Of a stretch of DNA of 20,528 bases, positions 1-14,863 are shown piece after piece. Made by a program: the position numbers and the translations under genes. The stretch's first letter is position 1; each line of letters starts with the position of its first letter. The DNA comes from a virus. Location: positions 1 to 20,528 of IMG/VR virus record IMGVR_UViG_3300043427_002552; one strand, given 5' to 3'. The notes below the pieces were generated by a model. The model saw nothing but the letters and a program-made list of their open reading frames with translations. It ran no database searches and had not been told where the DNA came from.

Positions 1-260
1 GTTCTACCACACTTAATAGCGACGGTACACTCACAGTTTCAACATTGAACGCAAGTACTGGTGGAACAATTGGCGGATGGACTATTGGTGCAAGTAGCTT
101 GACCGGCGGTTCTACTACACTTAATAGTAACGGCACACTCACAGTTTCAACATTGAACGCAAGTACTGGTGGAACAATTGGCGGATGGACTATTGGTGCA
201 AGTAGCTTGACCGGCGGTTCTACTACACTTAATAGCGATGGTGCGATTACGTGTGCAAAT
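1..260 (+). repeat. 108-bp tandem repeat in the tail-fibre gene
   Basis: The repeat period is 108 bases (36 residues). One full unit is 45-152; the next begins at 153 and is identical for 83 bases (45-127 equals 153-235) before diverging. Bases 1-44 are the end of an earlier unit with four differences from 109-152. Each unit encodes GGTIGGWTIGASSLTGG followed by a Thr/Ser-rich stretch, and a degenerate copy of the motif (AGTIGGWTI) follows the last unit. The array continues upstream of the window, so the total copy number is unknown. Confidence 0.92.
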
Positions 261-959
261 CTGACCGCTAATACCGCCGGTACCATCGGCGGTTGGACTA
301 TTACATCTACAGGACTTCAGGCGACAGGAAATGGATCTTCTAGAATAACTGGTAATGGATTAAACATTGACGCAAGTACAAATCAAGCAACTATAGGATT
401 GAGTGGTACTTATAGTGCCACGTTGACTGGAGGAACTGCTGCCGCAGGCATAACTCTTGGTACAGGAGGATCGGCAACAAAGTTGTTTGATAACGGTACA
501 TTAACTCTTGCTGGAGCAACACTCACTTATAGTGGAGGAAAATTTAATTTTGGATCCGGTGCAGCGACTGTTACGTGTGGTAGAATTGAAATTGGCTCTG
601 GTGGATTAGATTGTGCTGGAGGAGGGTCATTCTCTGGCGCCGTGGGGGCAGCATCGTTCAATAGCACATCATCCAGAAAATATAAGACCAATATTAAAGA
701 TTTGACAAATGGGTTAAATATGCTAAACAGATTAAGACCGGTTACATTTGACTGGAAGAATAATAAAACACATAATGACATTGGTATGATTGCCGAAGAA
801 GTAAATGAAATATTCCCAACCATAGTATATAAAAACTCTGACGGAGAGATAGAGGGTCTGGAATATGGAAAACTTGTAACCGTTTTGGCGGCGGCATTAA
901 AAGAACTATCAACTGAAGTTCAAGAACTAAAGCGGCAAATAAAAGAATTAAGAAAATAA
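1..959 (+). CDS. Tail fibre protein with C-terminal peptidase-S74 chaperone domain (5' partial)
   Basis: The reading frame is open from the first bases, so the true start lies upstream; the TTG at 45 is not taken as the start. The N-terminal part carries GGTIGGWTIG-type repeats rich in Gly, Ser and Thr, followed by more Gly/Ser/Thr-rich beta-type sequence. The last ~100 residues (from about base 660) match the peptidase-S74 intramolecular chaperone of phage tail fibres and endosialidases: an S-S-R-K-Y-K-T-N-I motif (canonical S-D-x-x-x-K-x-N-I), then PVTFDW, IGMIAEEV, P-T-I-V, LEYGKLV and a C-terminal coiled coil rich in Leu, Glu and Lys. In the family this domain trimerises the fibre and then cleaves itself off by a Ser/Lys mechanism. 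The Ser and Lys are kept here; the usual Asp after the Ser is Ser. It probably forms the distal receptor-binding fibre. The next gene starts 1 base after the stop. Confidence 0.9.
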   Translation, partial: STTLNSDGTLTVSTLNASTGGTIGGWTIGASSLTGGSTTLNSNGTLTVSTLNASTGGTIGGWTIGASSLTGGSTTLNSDGAITCANLTANTAGTIGGWTITSTGLQATGNGSSRITGNGLNIDASTNQATIGLSGTYSATLTGGTAAAGITLGTGGSATKLFDNGTLTLAGATLTYSGGKFNFGSGAATVTCGRIEIGSGGLDCAGGGSFSGAVGAASFNSTSSRKYKTNIKDLTNGLNMLNRLRPVTFDWKNNKTHNDIGMIAEEVNEIFPTIVYKNSDGEIEGLEYGKLVTVLAAALKELSTEVQELKRQIKELRK

Positions 960-960
960 T

Positions 961-1290
961 ATGGCATCAGGTTATACAGTAGACGTTGACGGAACACCCG
1001 TCGATTTGGATTCTATATTTAGACCAAAAAGCGCGGCTACTGAAAAAGCAGGTAATGTAAATTATAAAGTTTCTAACATAGATATTTCCAATAGATACGA
1101 AAAAATAACCGTGGAGGGACAGCAATGGGATAGAAACACGAATTTTTTGGCGTATGGCGGAGATTTGGCATCTATATTCGCCGTCACAGATGCGCCAACA
1201 CCAACGCCCACAAAATCGCTGACTCCATCTTTATCATTTTCGCCAACACCGTCAGAAACTCCACCAATTACACCGTCGGTTTCATATTAA
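961..1290 (+). CDS. Small virion-type protein with Pro/Thr/Ser-rich C-terminal tail
   Basis: This is a 109-residue protein that I cannot assign to a named family. Residues 1-76 look like a small folded domain (VDVDGTPVDLDSIF near the N-terminus, then YEKITVEGQQWDRNTNFLAYGGDL). Residues from about 77 to the end are almost entirely Pro, Thr and Ser, with repeated TPT/TPS units such as APTPTPTKSLTPSLSF. There is no signal peptide or membrane segment. It begins 1 base after the tail-fibre stop, so the two are almost certainly co-transcribed, suggesting a tail or fibre accessory protein. Such mucin-like tails are plausible O-glycosylation acceptors, and glycosyltransferase genes follow immediately; that link is inference. 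Confidence 0.7.
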   Translation: MASGYTVDVDGTPVDLDSIFRPKSAATEKAGNVNYKVSNIDISNRYEKITVEGQQWDRNTNFLAYGGDLASIFAVTDAPTPTPTKSLTPSLSFSPTPSETPPITPSVSY

Positions 1291-1314
1291 TTATACAATA
1301 AAAATTTAAATGTT

Positions 1315-2481
1315 ATGAATATAAAAATACCATACAAAGAATTGGGAAACATATCAAACGCAGCATATGTTGCGGTAATTTTAGATAAAAATAATAATCC
1401 CATATACAGAAGAGATTATAGTCGCGTGTCAGACCCTTGGTTTTTTTCTAAAACAAAAACTAAGCTACCCATAGAAAATAAATTATACGAATTATGCGAC
1501 AGCGTAGTGTTTTATCCGTATTACAATAACACTGGTTGGGGTAATAGAATCGTGATAAAAAAAGAGAAAAACGAGTTGCCAGATAATAGTAATAAAAGTT
1601 TAGAATATATTAAAAACTCAGGCAAACCCGTAGATTTAAATTCGTTGAAAAAATGGATATTTACGGGCTCTAAATTTCCCATAAAAACTAATGTAATCGG
1701 CGATAAAAATTTGATATACTTTACCGCGTTTGGAAACAATGAATATATTGCCTTGTTAAAATTATTGCTAAAAGGATTGAAGAATCAACCGTATAGAAAT
1801 TTTGATATATTGTTTATAACAGATGCATCTACTAAACGAACCATAAATAAAATAGCCGATTTAAAACATTTTAATGTAGATTTTCACGTAATTAAACCTA
1901 TAACTGACCCCGTGCGTGCATCAATGCAAAAATTAAAAATACATGAATATAAAAAAATAAAACAATACAAAAAGATATTGTTTTTAGACATGGATATATT
2001 GGTGCTCGGGAATTTATCCAAAATCTTCGATGAAGAGATTAGGCCGAATAAGTTGTATAGCGGAATACAAAAGTTTGAAATGTCTATGCATAATACTGCG
2101 TTTCATTGTATTAACGAATATACCAGTGAATACTTGGATTTCTTTTCCAAGCGCGGAATATTTCCATTTAACGCCGGTCAATTTATGTTTTTGAACACAC
2201 CGACTATGATAAAGCATTTTAAGCATATAGACAAATTTGCACATAAATGGAAAGGTCCGTTTTTCTTTGAGCAAAGTTTTCTTAATACATATTTTAATGT
2301 ATTATGTATGTCGGATGTATTTAAATTCAAAAATGAATTCGGATTTATATCAATAAACATGAATGATACTGGTTATAAACCAAACGAGGACACTGTGTTT
2401 GTGCATTTTATGGGGAGCATAGGAAAGCCTGATGGGAAATTAAAATTTATTAAAAAATATTATAAAAGTTTAATTGCGTGA
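1315..2481 (+). CDS. GT8-family-like glycosyltransferase with an unassigned N-terminal domain
   Basis: This is a 388-residue protein. From about residue 125 it has the GT-A fold order of GT8 enzymes (glycogenin / LgtC type): a start like NLIYFTAFGNNEYIALLKLL, the metal-binding D225-M-D227 in LFLDMDILVLGN, FNAGQFMFLN with the conserved N-A/S-G, and the C-terminal H364-x2-G367-x3-K371-P372, which matches the HxxGxxKPW signature. These point to a retaining transferase that moves a sugar from a nucleotide donor; the sugar and acceptor are unknown. Residues 1-120 are extra relative to the family and not recognised. The gene is markedly AT-rich (9 G+C in the 60 bases 1921-1980) compared with the terminase gene. 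It overlaps the next gene by 4 bases. Confidence 0.85.
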   Translation: MNIKIPYKELGNISNAAYVAVILDKNNNPIYRRDYSRVSDPWFFSKTKTKLPIENKLYELCDSVVFYPYYNNTGWGNRIVIKKEKNELPDNSNKSLEYIKNSGKPVDLNSLKKWIFTGSKFPIKTNVIGDKNLIYFTAFGNNEYIALLKLLLKGLKNQPYRNFDILFITDASTKRTINKIADLKHFNVDFHVIKPITDPVRASMQKLKIHEYKKIKQYKKILFLDMDILVLGNLSKIFDEEIRPNKLYSGIQKFEMSMHNTAFHCINEYTSEYLDFFSKRGIFPFNAGQFMFLNTPTMIKHFKHIDKFAHKWKGPFFFEQSFLNTYFNVLCMSDVFKFKNEFGFISINMNDTGYKPNEDTVFVHFMGSIGKPDGKLKFIKKYYKSLIA

Positions 2482-3242
2482 AATTTACCATAATTACTTC
2501 GCTATACGGCACATTACCTGTAGTCAAGGAGTGCATCGATAGTTGGCTTCCTTTGCCGCCGAATTGGAATTTGATTGTATATAACTCGGCGGTGTCCTCC
2601 ATCGATGGTACTACAGACTATATTCGTCAAAAGCAAAAAGAGCATAATTTTTTGTTGATAGAAGACGGAAAGACGAGGTCACATACTTCGGCTATAAAAA
2701 CAATAATACCAAGCATTGATGGAGATTGGGTATTACATCTGGATTCAGACGCCAAGTTATTAAATAAGTTTTTTTTCTTGTGGGCAGAAGCTACCGCAAA
2801 AAGCAAAAAATATAAAGTTTATGGCAAAGTAGATAAAAGAATATCGGCAAGAATTGCTATCCGAGAACGGTATATTCACAATAATACAGTGAATGAGATG
2901 TATTTGCCACGCTGTCATCAATGGTTAATGATGTTTGAGAAAGAATACTTCATTCAAAAAAATATAAGTTTTGACGACATAATAATGACGGCAAAAATAA
3001 CATCTCATGGTAAAAAGTTAGCATCACAGGATGGAACAAAAAATTACGACCACGGTGATGAAATATTCATATTTGGAGACACAAGCTGGCAATTGTTTTG
3101 GGAATCTATTGGAGACGATTTGTTTTGTAGTTTTCCAGACGAGGCATATAATTGCTGGAAACATCTCAATAATCAATCATGTAAGTGGGATAGAGTAAAC
3201 AGAGAACTTATATTAAGTGGAAGTTTTCATAGAGTTTCTTGA
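2478..3242 (+). CDS. GT2-like (GT-A fold) glycosyltransferase
   Basis: This is a 254-residue protein starting at a GTG whose last bases overlap the upstream TGA (GTGA junction), indicating translational coupling to the GT8-like gene. The N-terminus FTIITSLYGTLPVVKECIDSW resembles the first strand of GT2 enzymes, and DGDWVLHLDSDAKLL holds a DxD metal/nucleotide-binding motif (D89-S-D91). The rest shows no membrane segment, so it is probably a soluble cytoplasmic transferase. Length is normal for a single GT-A domain. Acceptor and donor cannot be read from the sequence. A 60-base AT-rich gap follows, so this gene may end the transcript that begins with the tail fibre. Confidence 0.75.
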   Translation: MKFTIITSLYGTLPVVKECIDSWLPLPPNWNLIVYNSAVSSIDGTTDYIRQKQKEHNFLLIEDGKTRSHTSAIKTIIPSIDGDWVLHLDSDAKLLNKFFFLWAEATAKSKKYKVYGKVDKRISARIAIRERYIHNNTVNEMYLPRCHQWLMMFEKEYFIQKNISFDDIIMTAKITSHGKKLASQDGTKNYDHGDEIFIFGDTSWQLFWESIGDDLFCSFPDEAYNCWKHLNNQSCKWDRVNRELILSGSFHRVS

Positions 3243-3302
3243 GATGTCATATATATTATAACAACCTGATAATATTTGGATTTCTGTATATATTTATAGT
3301 AT
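3243..3302 (+). promoter_or_regulatory. AT-rich intergenic gap with candidate promoter motifs
   Basis: This 60-base gap contains TCATATATAT at 3247-3256 and GTATATATTTATA at 3286-3298, just before the ATG at 3303. Both strings recur exactly in the gap before the portal gene (16960-16969 and 16937-16949), and the first also recurs before 6230. Recurrence only in front of genes suggests a phage promoter, but low GC makes chance matches possible. No Shine-Dalgarno sequence is visible before 3303. Confidence 0.35.
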
Positions 3303-6197
3303 ATGGACAAATTCACACAACAGATCATAGAGCAGTTATATAACGAAATCGTAAATGCCAATCAGGTATATGCTATATATCCTGGTCGCTTCCATCCAGC
3401 AGGACCACATCATTACAAGGCATATAAGTATCTTGCCGATAAGTTTGGGGTACAAAATACATTTGTTGTTACATCAGACAAGGTTGAATTGCCAGATAGT
3501 CCATTAAGTTTTGCTGAAAAAAAAGCAGTATGGATAAAATACGGTGTTCCTGCCGATAAAATAATACAGGTTAAAAACCCGTATGTTGCTACAGAAGTAT
3601 TGGATATGCTTCCCGAAAATTCTGCGGTTGTGTTTGGATTTGGCAAGAAAGATTCTGAAAGATTTAGTGTAGGCGGTGTCAAAAAGGACGGTTCTCCATC
3701 ATATCTTCAGTTCTATGAACAGAACAAAAATGATCTACAAGACCTTACTAAGCACGGCTATCTTATAATTATTCCTCATTTTTCTTTAAAAGTTGATGGT
3801 AAGGAATTAAGCGGCACAGAAATACGCAATATGATTGCCGCTAATCCAAACAAAGAAACCTTCGATAAGATATTCGGGTGGTATGATCCAAAGATAGCAC
3901 AACTACTGTCTGATAAATTTAAAGAAGCGTCAAGTTATGTGCCGCCAGAAAAGCCAGTCAAGAAAAAGCTAAAAGAAGGTGGCAATATGTTTGATGTTGA
4001 TGCTTCAATGGTCAAACGTGAAAATCTTGATTCAACCATCCAAAAAGTTCTAAAAGATAATGGACTTGGTAAAGTACAATACTCAAAAATCGGAAATTTT
4101 AGCAAGCCATTGTTGGGGGACATTGATATTGCCATTGATACCAAAGATATGTTGAAGTTTTTAAAACTTCCGCCAACTGCCGACAAAGATACGTTATTTA
4201 AAGAGATAGAAGCAAAGTTTCCAGGCGGAAAAACTGCCAAAGGATTATATCAGTTTCATTTGCTTGGTAAAGCAGACAATCAACCATTTATAAACAAAGA
4301 CGGTAGTGAAGATGATACCAAAGAACCATTTGTTCAGGTTGATGTCATGTTGGGCGTTAGAGGTTGGAGAGAAAAGTTTTATTCAGGTGCACCATCGAGC
4401 CAATATAAGGCAAAGTTCAGAAACTTGTTTATTTCTGAAATATTGTCCAAGATTATAGAAGATGCTGGACCGGGTGGGTTGAAGCAAAAATATCTGCTTT
4501 CTCCAGCAGAAGGATTCTTCTTGCAAAAATTTACTATTGACGCGAAGGGAAAGCGTAAAGAAGTAAGCAGAGAACTAAAGTCCACCGATATGGATTTTGT
4601 AGCAAAGTTCTTGTTTGGAGAAGATAAGACATTTGCAGATATAGATACATTTGAAAAGGTGTATGCTTTATTCAATTCGAAGTCATTCAAGTTCCCACAG
4701 TTTAAGAAAGAAATATTGGATGCATACAAGGAAAATTTGGCAAAGAGCCAAGCAGCGGAACCAGATCTTCTTCATCCAAAGCTGGAAGAAGCTAACAAGC
4801 TGTCTATTCAGCGTTTTTCAGGTGCCAATGAAATGACCGACGCCGAGTTTTTGAATTTTCTACGTCGTATTCAGCCACTGGTAAAACAAGGTAAAATGGA
4901 TTTGAGTGTGTCTGACAACGCATCTGTAACAGAAAAGTTGGACGGATCTCCGTGTAAATGGGGATTAAATGCTGCTGGTCAATTTTTTGTAGAATCGGCA
5001 AACAGCGGCGAAGTAACTATAGCAAATGCCGAAAAGTTGAACAATCCATTCACCGTTCACTTTTATGAAGCTATAAAGTTTTTGAATAGCTATAAGCCAT
5101 TTCAGGCAAAGTTACAAGCAGTCAAAAAGAAGCACGGAGCATTTAAAGTTACTTCCGAAATGTTTCCGGTATTGACTCATAAAGGAGACGATTTGGGAGA
5201 CATTGTATTTGCATCAACTAAATACAACAAATCCAAGCTTGGAAACAAGGGTGCATTTGTATGCTTTAACGCCACCTGCGAAAAGCACGGTGATGAAGGT
5301 TCAGATGAAATTCTTGATATGGTTGAAAACACATCCGATCCCGAATGGAAGATATATAACATCAATAAGCACGGTACTTTAAGCAGAGAAGGACTGGTAT
5401 TTAATATTGCTGGAATACAAAAGCTCGTATCTGACCCAGCCAAACTGGCTCAAGCGGAAACACTACTTAAGTCAAGAAAAGATAGTCCAGAAAAAGATGC
5501 ATTAAAGAAAATCATACGCAACCTCAAAGACCAGATGCAGGATATATTAAACAAATATGCTGAACGCATTAATACATTCTTGAGTTCAGACGCCTCAAGA
5601 AAATATCCAGTAGAAGGTGTTGTATTAAAAATCAATCTACCGGACGAACCTGTATTTATAAAGGGAACATCTGAAATATTCCACAAAATTGCTGAAAAGA
5701 CTTGGGGAACTCGTAAGGCGGTTGGTAATGCCGAAAAAGTGTTTGATGGAGCATTTCTTACCAAGGTTCTTGGTATGACAACCGGTCACGCCGCTACACT
5801 AAACAAGAATATTGCAGCAGCAAAAGCAAAGGTCGGAGATGTTACAGATGAAGTATCTGCTAATAAAGTTGCGTTAGAAGTATATAATACACTAAAGGCT
5901 CAAGGTATTGATGCTTCTCCTACCGCCGTAAAAACTCGTGCCAATGAAGTTATAGCTGCTGCCAAGAAAGAGTTTGCGGATATACAAGCCAAATGGGAAC
6001 AGGTAAAAGCTACAGGCGAAGTTGACCCAGACAGTACGTCTAAAACCGAAAGCCAGATAAACTTCTTACAGCAAAAGCTAAATAATATATCTCAAGCGGT
6101 TCTTACAGACAAGTACAGCGGAGAGGCATATATTGTATATCTTTTAAGACTTTTTATAGATAAAAGATTACGCAGTAATGCAGAAACCGGAGACTAA
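3303..6197 (+). CDS. Multidomain cytidylyltransferase-like / PolX-like / KxDG ligase-like protein
   Basis: This 964-residue protein has three nucleotidyl-transfer modules. Residues ~20-210 resemble the cytidylyltransferase/NMN-adenylyltransferase fold: YPGRFHPAGPHH (residues 26-37, where HxGH is expected) and SGTEIR (170-175, matching the ISTEIR-type motif). Residues ~230-480 resemble a DNA polymerase X nucleotidyltransferase: KIGNFSKPLLGDIDIAI with D273 and D275, a third acid D347 in VQVDVML, and a YSGAPSSQYKAKFRN segment. Residues ~495-800 look like a covalent nucleotidyltransferase ligase: motif I E-K545-L-D-G-S, an E619 motif-III-like SEMFP, and motif IV E771-G-V-V-L-K776. The C-terminal ~170 residues are helical. 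A plausible role is gap-filling and sealing in DNA or RNA repair, with the first domain perhaps handling NAD or another nucleotide cofactor; that is inference. A zinc-ribbon gene follows. Confidence 0.72.
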   Translation: MDKFTQQIIEQLYNEIVNANQVYAIYPGRFHPAGPHHYKAYKYLADKFGVQNTFVVTSDKVELPDSPLSFAEKKAVWIKYGVPADKIIQVKNPYVATEVLDMLPENSAVVFGFGKKDSERFSVGGVKKDGSPSYLQFYEQNKNDLQDLTKHGYLIIIPHFSLKVDGKELSGTEIRNMIAANPNKETFDKIFGWYDPKIAQLLSDKFKEASSYVPPEKPVKKKLKEGGNMFDVDASMVKRENLDSTIQKVLKDNGLGKVQYSKIGNFSKPLLGDIDIAIDTKDMLKFLKLPPTADKDTLFKEIEAKFPGGKTAKGLYQFHLLGKADNQPFINKDGSEDDTKEPFVQVDVMLGVRGWREKFYSGAPSSQYKAKFRNLFISEILSKIIEDAGPGGLKQKYLLSPAEGFFLQKFTIDAKGKRKEVSRELKSTDMDFVAKFLFGEDKTFADIDTFEKVYALFNSKSFKFPQFKKEILDAYKENLAKSQAAEPDLLHPKLEEANKLSIQRFSGANEMTDAEFLNFLRRIQPLVKQGKMDLSVSDNASVTEKLDGSPCKWGLNAAGQFFVESANSGEVTIANAEKLNNPFTVHFYEAIKFLNSYKPFQAKLQAVKKKHGAFKVTSEMFPVLTHKGDDLGDIVFASTKYNKSKLGNKGAFVCFNATCEKHGDEGSDEILDMVENTSDPEWKIYNINKHGTLSREGLVFNIAGIQKLVSDPAKLAQAETLLKSRKDSPEKDALKKIIRNLKDQMQDILNKYAERINTFLSSDASRKYPVEGVVLKINLPDEPVFIKGTSEIFHKIAEKTWGTRKAVGNAEKVFDGAFLTKVLGMTTGHAATLNKNIAAAKAKVGDVTDEVSANKVALEVYNTLKAQGIDASPTAVKTRANEVIAAAKKEFADIQAKWEQVKATGEVDPDSTSKTESQINFLQQKLNNISQAVLTDKYSGEAYIVYLLRLFIDKRLRSNAETGD
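3973..3989 (+). promoter_or_regulatory. Possible internal ribosome-binding site and in-frame ATG
   Basis: AGAAGGTGG lies 4 bases before an in-frame ATG at 3987 (Met229). That ATG falls on the boundary between the cytidylyltransferase-like and PolX-like domains. Starting here would give a 736-residue PolX-ligase protein. The site matches a Shine-Dalgarno sequence better than anything before the main start at 3303. It could equally be a chance result of the Lys-Glu-Gly-Gly linker codons. Confidence 0.3.
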
Positions 6198-6229
6198 TTC
6201 ATATATATAACCAACAAAGGTTATACACT
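6198..6229 (+). promoter_or_regulatory. Intergenic stem-loop holding the ribosome-binding site of the next gene
   Basis: TATAACC (6206-6212) and GGTTATA (6219-6225) form a perfect 7-bp stem with a 6-base loop, AACAAA. The likely Shine-Dalgarno AAAGG (6216-6220) is partly in the loop and partly in the stem, 9 bases before the ATG at 6230, so folding could limit translation. The left part also contains TCATATATAT (6199-6208), shared with two other gaps. Confidence 0.4.
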
Positions 6230-6871
6230 ATGAAGAGAGCACAAGGCAAAAGTAATATTGATATCATTAAAGGTTATGTGGCGGGCGAACGTCCGTTCCT
6301 ACAAGTAGGATATACAGGAGACGCAGACAAGTATATCATACGTAAAGAAGGTGAAACTTGGAGCGATGCGAGCGGTAAGCAGTGGATACAAACAGCAAGT
6401 GGCCCACAAGCAGTTACTCGCATTATGGACATTGTGCGCGAAGAGATGAATGATAAATGCTCTTGTTGCAACAGAGAAGTACGATGGGGCACAAAGCAAG
6501 ACCGCAAGATGTATAATCGCACAAAAAAGTGCCTTGATTGTGTTGCCAAGGAAGAAACGGAACTGAGAATCAAAGGTCAATTCAAGCTGTATGAAACTAA
6601 GAAGTTGATAGAAAATGAACTATCATATTTGTTGGACATAAAACAAAAGCTACGCGAAAGTAAGGACTATTTGGAAAGTGACGCATCAAAAACACTTACT
6701 TGGGCAAATCAAACAGGTATGGTAGAAGAATGGAGCAACGAAGCAAGAGGCGAACTAAAAAAGAATATACAAAAAGACTGGGTTACTTGTTTGAAGAAAA
6801 TAAAAGCCGCAGAAAAAGAGCTAAAGAAAGTAAACACAGAAATTGATAAAGTACTAAATAAAAAAGATTGA
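6230..6871 (+). CDS. Zinc-ribbon protein with coiled-coil C-terminus, function unknown
   Basis: This is a 213-residue protein of no family I recognise. The N-terminal 70 residues are a compact domain (RPFLQVGYTGDADKYIIRK). A four-cysteine zinc-binding pattern follows: C77-x2-C80 (with C79 between) and C101-x2-C104. Residues ~105-213 are strongly charged and helical, rich in Lys, Glu and Leu, and likely a coiled coil. The zinc ribbon suggests nucleic-acid or protein binding. A possible Shine-Dalgarno AAAGG sits 9 bases before the ATG. It lies between the multidomain repair-like protein and the sugar gene block; the spacing is compatible with co-transcription with the former, but a partnership is only a guess. 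Confidence 0.7.
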   Translation: MKRAQGKSNIDIIKGYVAGERPFLQVGYTGDADKYIIRKEGETWSDASGKQWIQTASGPQAVTRIMDIVREEMNDKCSCCNREVRWGTKQDRKMYNRTKKCLDCVAKEETELRIKGQFKLYETKKLIENELSYLLDIKQKLRESKDYLESDASKTLTWANQTGMVEEWSNEARGELKKNIQKDWVTCLKKIKAAEKELKKVNTEIDKVLNKKD

Positions 6872-6901
6872 CGTGGGGAGCAAATCTTTTAATATAAGAT
6901 T

Positions 6902-9487
6902 ATGAAGATTTTATATATTGCTCCGCATCTATCAACTGGCGGTTGTCCGCAATACTTGCTTAAGAAGATACAAGTATTGGTAAAAGAGCACGAAGTATAT
7001 TGCGTGGAATATTCTAATCATGGCGGATTTACCGTACAAAGAAATCAAATCAAAGAAATACTAAAGGATAGATTCTTTGAGTTGGGCGAGAACAAGATGC
7101 AAGTAATGGATATTATAAATAAAATAAATCCAGAAGTTGTACATCTTGAAGAAATGCCGGAATATTTTATGGATGGTAATCTTGCCATTGAATTGTATTC
7201 AAAGGATAGAAAATACAAACTGATAGAAACTTCTCACGATAGCAGTTTTAATCCACAGAGTAAAACAATGTTTCCCGATAAGATATTGTTTGTAAGTAAA
7301 TATCAAATGGAAACTCTTAAATCTTTGGATGTACCTATGGATGTATGCGAGTATCCAATAGTAATAAACCCAAGAAAGCCGCGTGAAGAAGCACTAAAGG
7401 TGCTTGGATTAGATCCGAACAAGAAACACGTTATAAACGTTGGGTTATTTACGCCAAGAAAAAATCAGGCAGAAATAATAGAATATGCCAAGCAACTTAT
7501 TAACTATCCTATTCAGTTTCATTTTATAGGAAATCAAGCAGACAATTTCAAGTTTTATTGGGAACCTTTGCGGAAAGATTTTCCGCCAAATTGTACGTGG
7601 TGGGATGAACGAAAAGATGTACATAACTTTTATCAGGCAGCAGATCTATTTCTATTTACTTCTCGCGGCACAAATAACGACAAAGAAACCAGCCCACTTG
7701 TAATACGTGAAGCAATATCATATAACATACCATCGTTGATATACAACTTACCCGTGTATCTTGGTATGTATGACAAATATGAAAATATCGAATATTTGGA
7801 TTTTGACTCAAACAAAAACAATATAATTAAAATACTGAAAAAATTAAATATGCAAATTGATGATGCGAAACTATTTAGAGAGCAATTTTATTCAAAAGAA
7901 GATGTAAAATTTAATGTTGCATATGATAATACTCAAAATAAAATTTTATTTTCAACAAATACGTTGGTAGAGGATTTGCTTGTTTCTATAAAAGAATTAG
8001 ACTCTCGTGCCGTTGTATGGTCTGCTCATTATGATTCCATGCCAGCAAATTCTGAATTTTGGATTATACCTACCCCAAAAGATTTTATAGATTTTGAAAA
8101 AGATCCTTATATAGGAGGTCTTCTTGTCGAGTTTTATAGCAAAGAAAAATTAATAGATAGTAAATCTATAAGAATAAAGCCTGCAATACCAAATAAACAT
8201 CGGTCAACATTGAAAAATAATAAAGAGCCGATGTATATGAATTATACAGAATTTTTTGTGGATAGAATATATGATGAGTTTGTTAAAAACAAAAAATTTG
8301 ATACTGTTGTGGACGTTGGGGCAAATATAGGTCTATGGACCGAGTACATATTACACTCGGCTAAATGTAAAACAGTTTATGCGATTGAACCTAACAAATC
8401 TGCATTAGAAGTTTTGGAAAAATCATTTGGAGATAATGTAACAGTAGTTAAAAAAGCACTATCCGACGTTGATGGGCATATTGAATTTTTCGTGGATAGT
8501 GAGAATTCGACAGTATCTTCTATCGCAAATGTAAATAAAAATGATAAAGGATATGCAGTTGAATCAATAAAGTTCAAGACATTTATCAATCAATATAGTA
8601 TAAAAAAGATAGATTTAATGAAAGTGGATATTGAATCGGGGGAATATCCTCTATTTTCTTCGTTGGATGATTCTGATATTGGCATCATAGATAATATTTT
8701 GATGGAATATCATACGCTAGGTGGGAGGACATATGAAAAAGATGCGATGCAAATAATAAACAAGTTGAAGTCGCACGGATTTACGGTTTCTATTAAAAAT
8801 ATGCATCCCGCTGGCGGATTTATATATGCTACAAAAAACGCTAATGTAGTGGACAAAAGAAATGATGCAATGATTTCATTTTTGAATATAAATAAATGTC
8901 CAGACAAAAGAGATATCGCCGCGATTGTGAATAAATTATTTCCTGATGGAACTGGTGTAGAAATCGGTGTGTTGCGAGGAGATTATTCAAAAATTATATT
9001 AGAGCGTTGGAAACACGGTCAAATGTATCTGATAGACACTTGGCGACATTTGAGTGAATATGTTGATATGAATGGACAAGATGATAAATATCATTACGAT
9101 TGTATTGTAAAAACTTGTGAAAATATAAAGCCTTGGCAGAATAGAGCACACATGATTCGAATGGATAGTGCATTGGCTGCAAATTTATTTCCAGACGAGT
9201 TTTTTGACTTTGTTTATATTGACGCGGACCATTCATATGATGGAGTCGTGCGAGACTTGAAAGCATGGTGGCCAAAAGTAAAAAGGGGCGGGCTATTTTG
9301 CGGAGATGACTATATTCCACAAGATGGAGATATATGGCTTACAATTGAAGGACAACCGCCAAAGTATGCAGGAAAGTTTGGTGTAAGAAAAGCGGTAAAC
9401 GAGTTCACAGCCAAAAACAATTTAAAATTATATGAAACCACAAACGAGCCTTATTGGAAACAGTGGTATACATTTAAACCTTTTTAA
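6902..9487 (+). CDS. Fusion: GT-B glycosyltransferase, FkbM methyltransferase and a second class I methyltransferase
   Basis: This is an 861-residue three-module protein. Residues 1-~325 resemble a GT4-type GT-B transferase: start ILYIAPHLSTGGCPQYLL, donor-side INVGLFTPRKNQ, and E262-x7-E270 in KETSPLVIREAIS. Residues ~440-660 match FkbM-type methyltransferases: SAM-binding VDVGANIG (470-477), the ribose-binding acid E496 in IEPN, and KVDIESGEYPLF (D576, E578). Residues ~665-861 are another SAM-dependent methyltransferase with GVEIGVLRG (E687), YIDADHSYDGVVRDL, WWPKVKRGG and CGDDY. FkbM enzymes usually O-methylate sugars or small hydroxylated substrates, so the protein could transfer a sugar and then cap it by methylation. 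Base composition is uneven along the gene, with the centre more AT-rich, consistent with assembly by domain shuffling. No Shine-Dalgarno close to the ATG. The next gene begins 5 bases after the stop. Confidence 0.85.
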   Translation: MKILYIAPHLSTGGCPQYLLKKIQVLVKEHEVYCVEYSNHGGFTVQRNQIKEILKDRFFELGENKMQVMDIINKINPEVVHLEEMPEYFMDGNLAIELYSKDRKYKLIETSHDSSFNPQSKTMFPDKILFVSKYQMETLKSLDVPMDVCEYPIVINPRKPREEALKVLGLDPNKKHVINVGLFTPRKNQAEIIEYAKQLINYPIQFHFIGNQADNFKFYWEPLRKDFPPNCTWWDERKDVHNFYQAADLFLFTSRGTNNDKETSPLVIREAISYNIPSLIYNLPVYLGMYDKYENIEYLDFDSNKNNIIKILKKLNMQIDDAKLFREQFYSKEDVKFNVAYDNTQNKILFSTNTLVEDLLVSIKELDSRAVVWSAHYDSMPANSEFWIIPTPKDFIDFEKDPYIGGLLVEFYSKEKLIDSKSIRIKPAIPNKHRSTLKNNKEPMYMNYTEFFVDRIYDEFVKNKKFDTVVDVGANIGLWTEYILHSAKCKTVYAIEPNKSALEVLEKSFGDNVTVVKKALSDVDGHIEFFVDSENSTVSSIANVNKNDKGYAVESIKFKTFINQYSIKKIDLMKVDIESGEYPLFSSLDDSDIGIIDNILMEYHTLGGRTYEKDAMQIINKLKSHGFTVSIKNMHPAGGFIYATKNANVVDKRNDAMISFLNINKCPDKRDIAAIVNKLFPDGTGVEIGVLRGDYSKIILERWKHGQMYLIDTWRHLSEYVDMNGQDDKYHYDCIVKTCENIKPWQNRAHMIRMDSALAANLFPDEFFDFVYIDADHSYDGVVRDLKAWWPKVKRGGLFCGDDYIPQDGDIWLTIEGQPPKYAGKFGVRKAVNEFTAKNNLKLYETTNEPYWKQWYTFKPF

Positions 9488-9492
9488 ATATC

Positions 9493-10311
9493 ATGGTCAT
9501 CTTTCTATACAGTGATAAAAACTGCGAGTATCAGGCAATATCGTGCATTAAATCCTTAACTCACAAAATAACTGACGATGTTGTCGTTTTGTATTACACT
9601 ATAGGATTTGATAGTGCGTTTGAATTCAAGAATTTGAGAAAAATAAGAATTGAACCAAAAGCATATTTTCCAACTTTTCATTATTATAAATCCGAGTTGT
9701 CGTTGTTGACAATGCAGCTATATCCTAACGATTATTATTTCTTTACGGATACAGATGTGTTGTTTTCTCGCAACTTCAATTTCGCCGATCATAGATATAA
9801 CACACCATATCCTATGGCAAGTTTTGGTCCGCACGAATTTCCATTTATTTGGGAAGAAGTTAATGGTACTCGTATAATATACGACGAAAGCAAAACAATG
9901 AAGTACTTTGGAGTAACAGAAAGAAGCATGAGATACTGCTGGTCTTGTTTTTACACATTCAATCCAGATTGTAAGGACTTTTTTGAAGAGTATGTATCTA
10001 TGTGTCAAAATCAGTATTTGATGCAAAGACGAAAGCACTTCTTTCCATATGCGGACGAGACTGCGTTCAATGTTTGCTTGTGGAAAAGAAATGCAACAAA
10101 AAATTTAGGGTTCTCTTTTGTAAATACCCATTTATTGGATACCGTCAAGTTGGTTGAAGAAAGAAGAGCAAAGAATGCACACATAGAAGGTAATGTGGAT
10201 GCTTTTGGACAAAATTGGCAATACGTGGAAAATCCTGATAATGTATTGCTGTATCATGGGTTTAAAAGTCCGCACGATATTGATCCAACACTGGAATATT
10301 TAATAAAATAA
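9493..10311 (+). CDS. GT-A-type glycosyltransferase
   Basis: This is a 272-residue soluble protein. The N-terminus VIFLYSDKNCEYQAISCIKSL is the first strand and helix of a GT-A fold. YYFFTDTDVLFSRNF contains D86-T-D88, the expected DxD. Further family-like points are CWSCFYTFNP, YADETAFNVCLW (a D-E pair typical of the catalytic region) and a late LLYHGFKSP, which may do the job of the C-terminal His motif of GT8-like enzymes. I cannot place it in one CAZy family; GT8-related or an unclassified phage family is most likely. It sits 5 bases after the preceding fusion gene and 25 before the next, within the sugar block. Confidence 0.7.
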   Translation: MVIFLYSDKNCEYQAISCIKSLTHKITDDVVVLYYTIGFDSAFEFKNLRKIRIEPKAYFPTFHYYKSELSLLTMQLYPNDYYFFTDTDVLFSRNFNFADHRYNTPYPMASFGPHEFPFIWEEVNGTRIIYDESKTMKYFGVTERSMRYCWSCFYTFNPDCKDFFEEYVSMCQNQYLMQRRKHFFPYADETAFNVCLWKRNATKNLGFSFVNTHLLDTVKLVEERRAKNAHIEGNVDAFGQNWQYVENPDNVLLYHGFKSPHDIDPTLEYLIK

Positions 10312-10336
10312 AATTAGGTATTTTGAAACGACGCAT

Positions 10337-11116
10337 ATGATTTATATCTGGAAAGATGAATATCCTGTGTTTTTGGAGTTGGCAAATCTTATATCAAGCG
10401 AATTGGATATGCCTAACGAAATCACAAATGATTTGAGCAAAGAAGGAACGTGGATAATATTTTTTGAATCTTTTATAAATCATCGGCATATATTTGAAAA
10501 GAGAAAATATATAATGGTTCAAACCGAAAATATACTTGAATCGGTGCGCCTTGATTCGCCTAACCTTAGACAAGAATATCAAAATTTTTTACGCAATGCG
10601 TATGCGGTGTGGGATTATACAAAAAATTTTAGACTAGGTTATTCTAAATATTATCAAATTCAATACGAACAGTCTAAAGATATGGATGTATTTTTTTATG
10701 GAAGTATAAACCCACGAAGAAAACATATCTTGGACCAAATACCAAACTTATCGACAGTCTCTGCTACTTCAGATATTAAGGTTGATTTTTTTCCTGCATT
10801 ATGGAATTATGTTCGAAGAAGCAAAATAGTCTTGTGCATAAATTACTACGAAAACTCAAACACGGACGTTATACGCCTTGCCCCGCTTTTGACAAATCGT
10901 ACATTTTTTATAGCAGAAAAAACTATCGACCCCTCTCACAATAACCGTACAGAATATGTAGTATCAGATTATAATAATATTCCAGCACTCTGTAAATACT
11001 ATCTAGAAAATCCAAAAGAAAGACTAAAATATATAGAAAGTGGATATAACTATATAAAAAATAATCCAATATTGTTGCCGGATATTTATTCAGAGCGAAA
11101 TATCAATTACGTATAA
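10337..11116 (+). CDS. Putative GT-B-like glycosyltransferase (divergent)
   Basis: This is a 259-residue protein recognised only weakly. The order of elements recalls CgeB-like or other single-chain GT-B glycosyltransferases that have lost much of the N-terminal domain: KYIMVQTENIL, then AVWDYTKNF, a second-domain start DVFFYGSINPRRKHIL, and a conserved-looking ALWNYVRRSKIVLCINYYE followed by DVIRLAPLLTNRTFFIAEK. The last section (ALCKYYLENPKERLKYIESGY) resembles the C-terminal helix of such enzymes. No membrane segment. The next gene begins 5 bases after the stop. Its position among clear glycosyltransferases supports the call, but a non-catalytic role is possible. Confidence 0.55.
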   Translation: MIYIWKDEYPVFLELANLISSELDMPNEITNDLSKEGTWIIFFESFINHRHIFEKRKYIMVQTENILESVRLDSPNLRQEYQNFLRNAYAVWDYTKNFRLGYSKYYQIQYEQSKDMDVFFYGSINPRRKHILDQIPNLSTVSATSDIKVDFFPALWNYVRRSKIVLCINYYENSNTDVIRLAPLLTNRTFFIAEKTIDPSHNNRTEYVVSDYNNIPALCKYYLENPKERLKYIESGYNYIKNNPILLPDIYSERNINYV

Positions 11117-11121
11117 AGGTT

Positions 11122-13239
11122 ATGAAAATCATAAACATCAATCCCGGTCTATTACCCATTCCTCCAAATGGCTGGGGAGCAGTTGAAAAAATCATATGGG
11201 ACTACCATCAAGAAATGCTTAATATTGGTCTTCGCAGCGAAATCAGATATACAGACGAAGTGCAGTACGATGATAGTTGTGTGGTACATGTACACGTAGC
11301 AAATTTAGCAAACTTGCTACACGAACGTGGCATACCTTATATTTTTACTATTCACGATCATCACGCATATTTGTACGGCAAAGATTCCCAGCTATTCAAA
11401 GAAAATCTAAAAGCGATTGAGAACAGCGTATTTTCACTTTCTCCTTGCAAATATCTTGTGCCATACTTTGGCAGCAAAAAACTTAGATACTTCAGTCACG
11501 CTGTAAATACAGATATTTTTACATTCAATAATCGCCAGAGACACAAAAACTTGAAGTTGCTTTGTGTAGCGAACAACGGATATGCATATGACCAGAGCAT
11601 AGATAGAAAAGGATTCAAGATTGCAATACAGGCAGCAAAGACGCTCGGCTTACCAATTACGATTGCTGGACCAAGAAACAATGACAATTTCTTCAAGACG
11701 CTTGAGCCAGAACTAAACGGTTATACTGGTCTTACTAAGTTATACGATCTTGATGAAAAATGGCTAACTCATTTGTACAATGAAAATGATGCGTTTCTTC
11801 ACTTTTCGGAACTTGAAGCCGGTCATCCTAACCTTACATTACTTGAGGCTATGGCGAGTGGATTGCCAGTCATAGGTACATTCGAAGAAGATACATACAA
11901 CGGTATGGCAGTATGCAAACGAGATTTGGACGAGGCAATTGCTGCAATAAAGAACGTTGACGAAAACTATGATAAATTTAGAGCAGATGCACTCGCGAAC
12001 GCAAAATCAAATTCATACAAAAACAGAGTTCATGAATTAGTTGGGTTGTATAGTGAATATAGAGAACGTATTTTTGGAAATAAACTCATCGAGTGCTACT
12101 CAAACTGTGAAAAAGTAGTCAAGGAAGCAAAAAATAACATTTTGATCAATTTTCCACAAGGCCCAAAGGTAGAAATACTTGGACCAATAAGCAGAAAACA
12201 TAAGATAAAGTTTATTGATACAGACAAAAATCAGATAGTATATGAAACAATCATCGGAAATAATATGTGGGCTACAAGCAGCATAAAATATTTCTGTAAA
12301 TGGAAGATAGAAGTATACGAAATGGTTGGAGAAAACTGGGAGAGGCTGATACACACTCATTTATATAACGCAGAGGGTAAAGACGTAAAAGTTATACTTG
12401 ATACAGAAAGTGTGGGAGATCTTATTGCGTTTATTGGGTCGGTTGAAGAGTTTAGAAAACAACATAAATGTAAAATGCATTGTGTTGTATTTTCTAAGCC
12501 TTTGCGCGAGTTATTTAAAAAGTCGTATTCAAATATCAACTTCTTGGATAAAAACCCAAGCGATGATGCATATTATGCAACATATAACATAGGATATTTT
12601 GAGGAATGGAAAGACCGACTAATTACGAACCCGAAAAGATTATCTCTTCCGCACATAGCATCACAAATACTTGGATTTGGAAACAAGGAGTTTAAACCAA
12701 TACTACAGTATGATAAGCCTTCTCCACCAAACAAAAAATATGTGTGTATATTTACACAGAGTACTGCTCAATCAAAATATTGGAATAATGAAGACGGATG
12801 GAAAACTGTAATAAATTATTTGAACAAAAAAGGATATGAAGTATGGTGCATAGACAGATATAGTTCTTTTGGAACTAAAACAAAAATGAACTATATCCCG
12901 CCCGGCGCAATCGATAAGACAGGCGATTATAGTCTTGAAATAAGAATGCAGCAAATACACAACGCCGAGTTCTGCATCGGATTGAGTTCTGGATTAAGTT
13001 GGCTTACTTGGGGAGTAAATAAGCCCGTCATACTTATTAGTGGATTTACAGAAGAATTCAATGAATTTGAAACGCCATATAGAGTAATCAACAAAAATGT
13101 ATGCAACGGCTGTTGGAACGATGTTAATTGTAAATTTGATAAAGGCGATTGGTTGTGGTGCCCAAGAAACAAAGATTTTGAATGTACCAAGAAGATATAT
13201 CCACAAAATGTTATAGATGTTATAAATAAAATAATATGA
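11122..13239 (+). CDS. Fusion of a GT4 glycosyltransferase and a TibC/AAH-type O-heptosyltransferase
   Basis: This is a 705-residue protein. Residues 1-~320 are a GT4-type GT-B transferase: NPGLLPIPPNGWGAVEKIIW at the start and a donor motif with E232 and E242 in EAGHPNLTLLEAMASGLPV. Residues ~345-705 match the autotransporter O-heptosyltransferase family (TibC, AAH): QSKYWNNEDGW, YEVWCIDRY, CIGLSSGLSWLTWGVNKPV, SGFTEEFNEFETPYRVIN, and a C-terminal cysteine cluster C661-x2-C664-x15-C680-x7-C688 (C670 lies between). From memory, TibC binds iron through a C-x2-C-x15-C-x19-C cluster; the first three spacings agree. Known members transfer heptose from ADP-heptose to Ser of repeat-containing adhesins and are single-domain. 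The donor here is not proven to be heptose. The stop overlaps the next ATG by 4 bases. Confidence 0.86.
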   Translation: MKIININPGLLPIPPNGWGAVEKIIWDYHQEMLNIGLRSEIRYTDEVQYDDSCVVHVHVANLANLLHERGIPYIFTIHDHHAYLYGKDSQLFKENLKAIENSVFSLSPCKYLVPYFGSKKLRYFSHAVNTDIFTFNNRQRHKNLKLLCVANNGYAYDQSIDRKGFKIAIQAAKTLGLPITIAGPRNNDNFFKTLEPELNGYTGLTKLYDLDEKWLTHLYNENDAFLHFSELEAGHPNLTLLEAMASGLPVIGTFEEDTYNGMAVCKRDLDEAIAAIKNVDENYDKFRADALANAKSNSYKNRVHELVGLYSEYRERIFGNKLIECYSNCEKVVKEAKNNILINFPQGPKVEILGPISRKHKIKFIDTDKNQIVYETIIGNNMWATSSIKYFCKWKIEVYEMVGENWERLIHTHLYNAEGKDVKVILDTESVGDLIAFIGSVEEFRKQHKCKMHCVVFSKPLRELFKKSYSNINFLDKNPSDDAYYATYNIGYFEEWKDRLITNPKRLSLPHIASQILGFGNKEFKPILQYDKPSPPNKKYVCIFTQSTAQSKYWNNEDGWKTVINYLNKKGYEVWCIDRYSSFGTKTKMNYIPPGAIDKTGDYSLEIRMQQIHNAEFCIGLSSGLSWLTWGVNKPVILISGFTEEFNEFETPYRVINKNVCNGCWNDVNCKFDKGDWLWCPRNKDFECTKKIYPQNVIDVINKII

Positions 13240-14369
13240 AAAATATGATACAACTGTTCAAAGTTTACATGAGTCAAAATGCCAAAATTGAGGTTGGAAA
13301 AGTATTAGACAGTGGTTATATCGGTCAAGGTCCAAAGGTAGAAGAGTTTGAATGTGCGTTGAGGTCGTTTTTAAATAACGACAGAGTTCTTACTCTAAAT
13401 GCCGGAACATCCGGATTGCACCTTGCTCTTCATATGCTCAAAGCGAACGGTAGCATCAAAAATGATGACGAAGTCTTGGCTACTGCTCTTACGTGTACGG
13501 CGTCAAATTGGCCAATATTAGCTAACAATCTACGTATAAAATGGGTAGATATAGATCCAAAAAATTTAAATATGGATTTGGATGATTTGGAAAGAAAGAT
13601 TACACATAAAACAAAGGCAATAATTGTTGTACATTGGGGAGGATATCCAGTAGATTTGGACAGATTAAAAGCTATACAAGAAAAAGCATATAATATTTAT
13701 GGATTTAGACCGGCAATAATAGAAGACGGAGCACATGCGTTTGGTACAGAATATAAAGGAAAAAAATTAGGAAACCACGGTAATATTGTAATGTATAGTT
13801 TTCAGGCTATAAAACATATAACTTCAGTAGATGGTGGGTTATTGGTTCTACCCAACCAAGAATTATACCGCAGAGGAAAATTACTAAGATGGTATGGTAT
13901 AGACAGAGACGGAAATCGAAAAGACTTTAGATGCGAAGCCGACATTGAAGAGTGGGGATTTAAGTTTCATATGAATGATGTATGTGCTACCATTGGTCTA
14001 GAAAACTTGAGATTTGCGGATAGCATTATAGGAAAGCATAGAAATAACGCAAAATTTTATGACAATCAATTGGTAGATACTTCTGGTCTTACTCTTCTAG
14101 AAAGGAATAAAGATTGTAATTCGGCGTTTTGGATATACAGTATGCTGGTTGAAAACAGAGACGATTTTTATCGTTATATGAAAGAATGCGGGATTGTTGT
14201 ATCGCAAGTACACGAAAGAAATGATAAGCATACCTGTGTGAAAGAATATCGCTCCGCATTACCAACTTTGGATAAAATAGTACCAAAATTGGTGTCTATT
14301 CCGGTTGGATGGTGGGTGACTGAAGATGACCGTCAATATATCGTCGATTGTATCAAGAAGGGTTGGTAA
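13236..14369 (+). CDS. DegT/DnrJ/EryC1/StrS-family sugar aminotransferase
   Basis: This is a 377-residue PLP enzyme of the family that aminates nucleotide-linked keto-sugars. Family motifs appear in order: SGYIGQGPKVEEFE near the N-terminus, LNAGTSGLHLAL for the phosphate-binding region, the acid-rich IIEDGAHAFGTEYKGKKLG, and SFQAIKHITSVDGG with the Schiff-base Lys at K193. Length is normal for the family. The ATG at 13236 overlaps the upstream TGA (ATGA); an alternative Met lies 3 codons in (13245). With the following acetyltransferase it could make an N-acylated amino-sugar donor, but no dehydratase or epimerase is in the window, so the keto-sugar precursor must come from the host or from elsewhere in the phage. 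Confidence 0.9.
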   Translation: MKNMIQLFKVYMSQNAKIEVGKVLDSGYIGQGPKVEEFECALRSFLNNDRVLTLNAGTSGLHLALHMLKANGSIKNDDEVLATALTCTASNWPILANNLRIKWVDIDPKNLNMDLDDLERKITHKTKAIIVVHWGGYPVDLDRLKAIQEKAYNIYGFRPAIIEDGAHAFGTEYKGKKLGNHGNIVMYSFQAIKHITSVDGGLLVLPNQELYRRGKLLRWYGIDRDGNRKDFRCEADIEEWGFKFHMNDVCATIGLENLRFADSIIGKHRNNAKFYDNQLVDTSGLTLLERNKDCNSAFWIYSMLVENRDDFYRYMKECGIVVSQVHERNDKHTCVKEYRSALPTLDKIVPKLVSIPVGWWVTEDDRQYIVDCIKKGW

Positions 14370-14863
14370 TGAACCTATCTTTCAGAAAAATAACCGAAGC
14401 CGACCTCGCGTTTTTAAATGAAACAAGGAATATTTATGCAGAAGAGTTTTTGCACGATAGTAGAATATTCAGTTTAGACGAAACAATCCATTGGTTCAAA
14501 ACAACAAATCCAGATTATTGGATGATAAGAGACGATGATATAAATGAAACGGTGGGATATTTCAGACTATCAAATTATTCTAAAGCAAATAAAAACATAT
14601 ACATCGGGGCAGATATAGCACCTAAGTTTAGAAGAAAAGGATATGCTACCGCTGCATATAAAAAATTTATTCCATTGCTCTTTGGATTTTATGACTTGAA
14701 CAAAATAAGCCTAGAAGTTTTGACCACGAATACTAATGCTATTAAATTATACGAAAAGTTGGGATTTATAAAATATACAGAAATGGGTAAGGATGTATTG
14801 AAAAAAACGGGTGTTGTGGGTTCTATCAAAATGTATATACTGAGTTCTCGGTTGGTAAAATAA
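14369..14863 (+). CDS. GNAT-family N-acetyltransferase (likely amino-sugar N-acetyltransferase)
   Basis: I place the start at the ATG at 14369, which overlaps the previous stop (TAATG) and has AAGAAGGG (14355-14362) 6 bases ahead; a TTG at 14348 in the same frame is less likely. The 164-residue product is a single GNAT domain: FRKITEADLAFLNETRN at the start, the acetyl-CoA-binding RRKGYATAAYKKF region, and the C-terminal NAIKLYEKLGF. The sequence is of the RimJ/RimL/PseH type. Directly after a DegT aminotransferase, the natural role is acetylating the new amino group of a nucleotide-sugar, as in PseC/PseH or FdtB/FdtC pairs. A protein acetylase cannot be excluded. Confidence 0.85.
   Translation: MNLSFRKITEADLAFLNETRNIYAEEFLHDSRIFSLDETIHWFKTTNPDYWMIRDDDINETVGYFRLSNYSKANKNIYIGADIAPKFRRKGYATAAYKKFIPLLFGFYDLNKISLEVLTTNTNAIKLYEKLGFIKYTEMGKDVLKKTGVVGSIKMYILSSRLVK

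Follow-up and report, generated by a model that had tools for sequence, protein, structure and literature searches.

The window analyzed here, the whole of a 20.5-kb (20,528-nucleotide) IMG/VR fragment of an incomplete genome (record IMGVR_UViG_3300043427_002552), belongs to an uncultured T4-like phage whose nearest cultured relatives, by terminase comparison, are Microcystis phage Mel-JY01 (53%) and Flavobacterium phage immuto (51%). Positions 1-14863, in which every gene lies on the + strand, hold a genuine sugar-modification island with five supported glycosyltransferase (GT) domains (GT8, GT2, two GT4, and one GT9-type), FkbM and Methyltransf_24 domains, a DegT protein, and a GNAT protein (Table 1). 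The gene at 11122-13239 encodes a BAHT-family O-heptosyltransferase domain in which both the active site and the Fe-finger are intact. Judged from sequence, the island is probably a cassette of the late region that serves to O-glycosylate the phage's own virion fiber in the cytoplasm. Such self-glycosylation is favored as the best reading because the BAHT clade in question associates with proteins containing (SGT)n (Ser-Gly-Thr) repeats in bacteria, in phages, and in the window's own clade.

A phage-borne BAHT domain

The 11122-13239 product matches TIGR04414 (hepto_Aah_TibC) through its residues 331-705, with 352 bits (cut-off 200) over model positions 3-374 of 374, and a search of the PDB matches TibC (4rap/4rb4) at ~1e-70. 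The likeness to adhesin-modifying heptosyltransferases, noted in an original prediction made from the sequence alone, is thus firmer than first thought. The N-terminal β-barrel, TibC_1st (PF21129), reaches 18 bits against a cut-off of 27; nonetheless, the TIGR04414 alignment runs the whole length. In TibC, residues D110, T226, K230, R286, and W305 and the cysteines of the Fe-finger are conserved and important [Yao et al. 2014, PMC4358343]. All five residues have equivalents in the window protein (D433, T548, K552, R608, and W627, respectively), and its Fe-finger cysteines C661, C664, C680, and C688 align to TibC C339, C342, C358, and C370. Across an alignment of phage BAHTs (41 rows), the D, K, W, and four Fe-finger Cys are invariant (41/41), T is found in 32 (the others have Ser), and R in 30. 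The position of TibC Pro-300 is occupied by Ser in the window protein. The GT4-like N-terminus scores 24 bits, just below the Pfam cut-off, and matches a PHROG glycosyltransferase at 4e-8. Since the window contains no autotransporter passenger gene and the domain falls in a separate clade (see below), it is classed as a BAHT domain rather than as an autotransporter modifier.

These enzymes could instead remodel the host surface, altering lipopolysaccharide (LPS) or capsule during infection and thereby excluding other phages or freeing progeny. LPS synthesis also uses the GT8, GT2, GT4, and GT9 families, a related transferase in contig G006 is labelled "GtrB-like O-antigen conversion" by PHROG, and sugar genes adjoining fiber genes in pelagimyophages are read as host-surface modifiers [PMC7029224]. 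However, the strong score of the heptosyltransferase as a protein-modifying BAHT contrasts with only 23 bits against the model for LPS heptosyltransferase I, and the clade's link to (SGT)n proteins holds in bacteria and phages alike. In addition, none of the island proteins has a transmembrane segment according to hydropathy (maximum KD19 of 1.32), and hence none is a membrane protein by this measure; the membrane flippase and multi-spanning transferase of Gtr-type O-antigen conversion are not encountered among them. Host-surface remodelling is therefore considered unlikely.

Distribution of BAHTs and association with (SGT)n proteins

A scan of IMG/VR with the BAHT alignment yielded at least 523 BAHT-encoding stretches. 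When 84,980 genomes of bacteria and archaea were scanned with phage-biased patterns, only 17 BAHT loci emerged. A broad search of Gammaproteobacteria found BAHTs in just 2 of 369 genomes; because this number would not sustain a wide test of neighboring genes, Methylobacter's order was used for that purpose. In the BAHT tree, bacterial BAHTs split into two clades (support 100/99), and 31 of the 32 phage BAHTs share a clade with the bacterial BAHTs that are not of the TibC type. Thus, there is a BAHT clade common to phages and bacteria, and heptosyltransferases of this type have so far been known only as modifiers of autotransporters. A second, shorter BAHT-like open reading frame (ORF; a 302-aa open frame, 212 bits) is present at 179758-180573 of G021, a 297-kb relative of the window phage.

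The two clades have different neighbors. At the eight TibC-like loci, these are Ser/Thr/Gly-rich, autotransporter-like proteins of 400-2900 aa. In the clade shared with phages, 12 of 14 bacterial BAHTs (all but L256 and L390) have a neighbor with (SGTSGT)n repeats that is either secreted or a lipoprotein; the distance is at most 154 bp for ten of them and at most 1 kb for the other two. Among clade members fetched only after the (SGT)n idea had arisen (L390-L393 and L399), four of five conform. Because most of these loci come from Methylococcales, they represent few independent lineages. Secreted proteins or lipoproteins with (SGTSGT)n repeats lie directly beside a BAHT in methanotrophs and in other bacteria (L250, L252, L253, L257, L258, L260, L391-L393, and L399).

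In phages, a trio consisting of an HLSTGG-type GT4, a WGAIEK-type GT4, and a BAHT recurs, and in many lineages it has giant (SGT)n/(SGS)n collagen-like fibers on one side and the tail sheath/tube genes on the other; in some others the BAHT is directly upstream of the tail sheath. A GT4-methyltransferase-BAHT protein of Mel-JY01, 1226 aa long, adjoins a 508-aa Ser/Thr-rich structural protein, with an (SGT)n ORF at a distance of 1.7 kb. Two transferase genes of the 735-kb phage LR756501, one of them a GT4-BAHT fusion, adjoin a Ser-Gly-rich fiber, and in G018 the BAHT precedes genes for structural proteins and for a pair of S74 collagen-like fibers. Starting from the repeats gives a similar picture: among 40 viral contigs of at least 30 kb, chosen solely by a DNA pattern for (G-S/T-S/T)7, a BAHT is present in 19, including 9 of the 12 that are at least 100 kb long, and in 1 of 10 T4-like controls. 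In a distance test with 28 dereplicated contigs, BAHTs of lineages other than the window's clade lie nearer to fiber-like genes than random genes do (median 3.6 vs 9.3 kb, P 0.008), a result that leans toward association because contigs without any fiber-like gene were excluded, and for which the clade split was chosen after viewing the data.

Each of the seven contigs of the window's clade that extend far enough (G001, G015, G006, G007, G014, G021, and G028) has a collagen-like (SGT)n ORF 16-30 kb downstream of the BAHT and on its strand; in G015, (SGT)n sequence spans 34768-37248. This ORF is also present in G033, and it is absent from the BAHT-less relatives G029 (97 kb) and G030 (52 kb) and from the complete immuto genome. 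Consequently, it accompanies 8/8 BAHT-containing and 0/3 BAHT-less genomes (Fisher P 0.006, without correction for relatedness). Given this position in the relatives, the gene for the main acceptor is probably outside the window. The same seven contigs repeatedly end inside the (SGT)n ORF, since the repeats probably break short-read assembly; fiber genes may for this reason be under-represented in metagenomes.

Proposed pathway and points against it

Virion proteins assemble in the cytoplasm, where enzymes of the TibC type act. The BAHT domain would put heptose from host ADP-heptose on Ser/Thr residues of a repetitive fiber. The fused GT4, the GT4-FkbM-methyltransferase protein, and the variable transferases (GT8, GT2, and the unplaced ones) would then extend and methylate the glycan, with the DegT/GNAT pair supplying an N-acetylated amino sugar. 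The main acceptor is predicted to be the downstream (Ser/Thr-Gly-X)n collagen-like fiber of the close relatives, and the S74 fiber within the window is a possible second acceptor. The benefit might be a fiber that is shielded or altered. It is from the genes that we infer transfer of a sugar to a phage protein, heptose as that sugar, the sequence in which the glycan is built, which protein accepts it, and what the phage gains.

Several observations weigh against this pathway. ADP-heptose adenylyltransferase was not found in the phages tested, and consequently the heptose donor must come from the host; synthesis of ADP-heptose by the phage itself was rejected for want of this domain. The distance to fiber genes in the window's clade is no shorter for the BAHT than for random genes (P = 0.97). 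Fibers are also missing from the vicinity of the BAHT in the 636-kb phage LR756504, and a single phage BAHT, L217c, falls among those of the autotransporter type. No BAHT is seen in roughly half of the contigs with (SGT)n repeats, many of these being fragments. The enrichment among contigs chosen by their repeats (Fisher P 0.03) is not significant when normalized per Mb (P 0.23), because the T4-like control is small. Finally, the (SGT)n idea came from inspecting the neighbors of BAHTs, so that its support is partly post hoc.

As a broader proposal, which we hold more tentatively than that for the window and regard as a little short of probable, BAHTs of this clade O-heptosylate (SGT)n collagen-like repeats, and many large aquatic phages thereby make glycosylated collagen-like tail fibers, sometimes beside 2OG-Fe(II) oxygenases. 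Genes for such oxygenases occur near a BAHT and collagen-like fibers in L177 (6624-7187), L025 (4453-5677), L222 (2393-2989), and G055 (~40.9 kb), and PF13640 was confirmed in both that were tested. These enzymes might hydroxylate the fiber before it is glycosylated. Among the papers searched, none linked phage BAHTs, or BAHTs in general, with collagen-like proteins, and none described the association of the BAHT clade with (SGT)n proteins across phages and bacteria.

Genes of the island

Table 1. Genes and domains of the window, with the evidence for each assignment
Feature	Position	Strand	Evidence
Tail fiber, C-terminal part (5' end outside window)	3-959	+	Peptidase_S74 chaperone PF13884, 57 bits (cut-off 22)
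109-aa protein, last third Pro/Thr/Ser-rich	961-1290	+	
GT8-type glycosyltransferase	1315-2481	+	PF01501, 27 bits (cut-off 24.3); homologues in G002, G015
GT2-type glycosyltransferase	2478-3242	+	PF00535, 31.8 bits (cut-off 23.3)
964-aa protein, adenylyltransferase/nucleotidyltransferase/ligase-like	3303-6197	+	Read by eye, without profile match
213-aa CxxC protein	within 3303-6871, after 964-aa protein	+	
GT4 (HLSTGG type) + FkbM methyltransferase + Methyltransf_24, 861 aa	6902-9487	+	Pfam, NCBIfam
Possible glycosyltransferase, DTD motif, 272 aa	9493-10311	+	25 relatives, in GT islands
Possible glycosyltransferase, orphan, 259 aa	10337-11116	+	Sub-threshold Pfam match only; without relatives
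GT4 (residues 1-330) fused to BAHT O-heptosyltransferase domain (331-705)	11122-13239	+	TIGR04414 and TibC matches
DegT-type nucleotide-sugar aminotransferase	13236-14369	+	Pfam 250 bits; PDB 427 bits
GNAT acetyltransferase	14348-14863	+	Pfam 60 bits; NCBIfam PseH 51 bits, below cut-off 93
Terminase_6N	15264-16913		Basis for T4-like assignment
Portal_T4	16977-18884		Basis for T4-like assignment

The enzymes that the original prediction placed in this region are largely borne out, including the pair of amino-sugar genes and the two methyltransferase domains, both of which reside in the 861-aa protein. Its Ser/Thr-rich fiber and small Pro/Thr/Ser-rich protein are likewise present. The count of "at least six" glycosyltransferase domains falls to five, since neither 9493-10311 nor 10337-11116 matches any glycosyltransferase family above threshold in Pfam or in PHROG/NCBIfam-type profile searches. 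A PDB search with the 272-aa family returned nothing meaningful, and AlphaFold models of the two proteins have too low a confidence to be of use (pLDDT 49 and 34, respectively). The description of the whole region as a sugar island also holds for the most part; the exception is 3303-6871, between the GT2 and GT4-FkbM genes. The two proteins encoded there have relatives in contigs without any BAHT and are therefore regarded as conserved T4-like background. In the 964-aa protein, the N-terminus seems to resemble an NMN-adenylyltransferase, the middle (GDIDIAID) a nucleotidyltransferase, and a further part (EKLDG, EGVVLK) a ligase; in relatives such as L011, a 1300-aa protein with these parts in a different order adjoins the island.

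The N-terminal GT4 of the 861-aa protein is above the Pfam cut-off, and its homologues adjoin a BAHT in many phage loci. The solved structures nearest to the DegT protein include CalS13, and its NCBIfam match is PseC-like, below the cut-off. The GNAT protein probably acetylates the amino sugar. DegT and GNAT are absent from the nearest relatives L002, L003, and L020; other relatives have an alternative pair, assigned by eye, in which a short DegT-like protein is combined with one resembling hexapeptide acetyltransferases.

Candidate acceptors within the window and a possible alternative substrate

The fiber encoded at the start of the window contains a 108-bp tandem repeat (x2.8), specifying Ser/Thr/Gly-rich units of 36 aa, followed by the S74 intramolecular chaperone. 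The original prediction saw this fiber, the Pro/Thr/Ser-rich protein, or both as the specific acceptors, expected to track with the transferases. In support of this, homologous S74 fibers adjoin a BAHT in sister lineages (L177/L178, 5e-32; L182, 3e-19), and an 826-aa Ig-repeat protein at the same position in L182/G036 shares the motif GTPVDLxxIFR with the 109-aa protein. This is the sole partner of the 109-aa protein, which is otherwise an orphan, having no relative in 34 related records or in an IMG/VR scan for it.

Synteny was compared at 25 loci with a GT4-BAHT fusion or a relative of one. GT4-FkbM and GT4-BAHT form the constant part of these loci, and the other genes vary. For the nearest relatives, G002 and G015, the contigs stop short of the upstream side. 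In six close relatives (G006, G007, G009, G014, G021, and G028), both constant genes are kept and the S74 fiber and Pro/Thr/Ser-rich protein are missing from the island, which at the level of the locus formally refutes the two named acceptors. Upstream of the island in these six lie genes for primase, SbcCD, and a ~700-aa protein (c17); the last was rejected as an acceptor because it also occurs in the BAHT-less G029 and G030 and has no PHROG match. Adjacency of an S74 fiber to a BAHT was likewise rejected as a general rule, since it fails in the window's clade, and the Pro/Thr/Ser-rich protein, without relatives, was rejected as a conserved acceptor. It is therefore quite improbable that the two proteins are the specific acceptors, and neither is probably the main one. 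The S74 fiber nevertheless stays a second candidate on the strength of its homologues beside sister-lineage BAHTs. The 109-aa product is probably a small tail-tip protein accessory to the fiber, which suits it better than a mucin-like role. Thus, the general idea of a virus that glycosylates its own Ser/Thr-rich repeat fiber gains support from the bacterial neighbors, the search that began with repeats, and synteny in the window's clade, and the acceptors first named for it do not.

Another potential substrate is a modified base in phage DNA. Hydroxymethylcytosine is glucosylated in T4-like phages, and phage transferases reportedly hypermodify DNA in other lineages [Pyle et al. 2024, as cited in PMC12619734]. 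However, the BAHT domain is of the protein O-heptosyltransferase type, and no homologue of thymidylate synthase/hydroxymethylase is present in G006 (185 kb), G021 (297 kb), G014, or the complete Mel-JY01 genome. Given the lack of a hydroxymethylase in these relatives, glycosylation of DNA was set aside as very improbable.

Implications and comparison with known systems

Aquatic phages often carry glycosyltransferase genes next to tail fiber genes, and these transferases have so far been read as modifiers of the host surface. If the phages instead modify their own fibers, the view of host recognition, shielding, and the evolution of receptor binding would shift for hundreds of contigs. The BAHT family would gain a new class of acceptor, (SGT)n repeats, and the collagen glycosylation known elsewhere would have a counterpart in bacterial viruses.

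The window protein resembles TibC of enterotoxigenic Escherichia coli (ETEC) and AAH of diffusely adherent E. coli (DAEC) in its full-length domain match, its catalytic Asp, Lys, and Trp, and its four Fe-finger cysteines; like AAH, which accepts both heptose isomers, it has Ser at the Pro-300 position [PMC4358343]. Unlike either enzyme, it is fused to a GT4 domain, is carried by a phage, has no autotransporter nearby, and belongs to a separate clade, one linked to (SGT)n collagen-like proteins. The host-recognition cluster of pelagimyophages similarly places glycosyltransferases beside tail fiber genes in marine T4-like phages, although in the part of the source considered here it is read as modifying the host O-antigen, not a virion target [PMC7029224]. 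The cultured T4-like relative immuto (MW353177) has its own sugar island at 49-60 kb (49128-59944). Besides transferases, this island encodes a pair of WecE-like aminotransferases, an acetyltransferase-like protein, a methyltransferase, an epimerase, and a "pilin glycosylation protein"; unlike the window phage, immuto has neither a BAHT nor an (SGT)n fiber, and its island is away from the terminase. In mycobacteriophages, where we know of no BAHT, phage-encoded transferases reportedly glycosylate the phage's own virion proteins, with the C-termini of subunits of the capsid and tail tube as acceptors [Freeman et al. 2023, as cited in PMC12619734]. These acceptors differ from those proposed here, and the shared feature is a set of phage transferases that would act on the phage's own virion.

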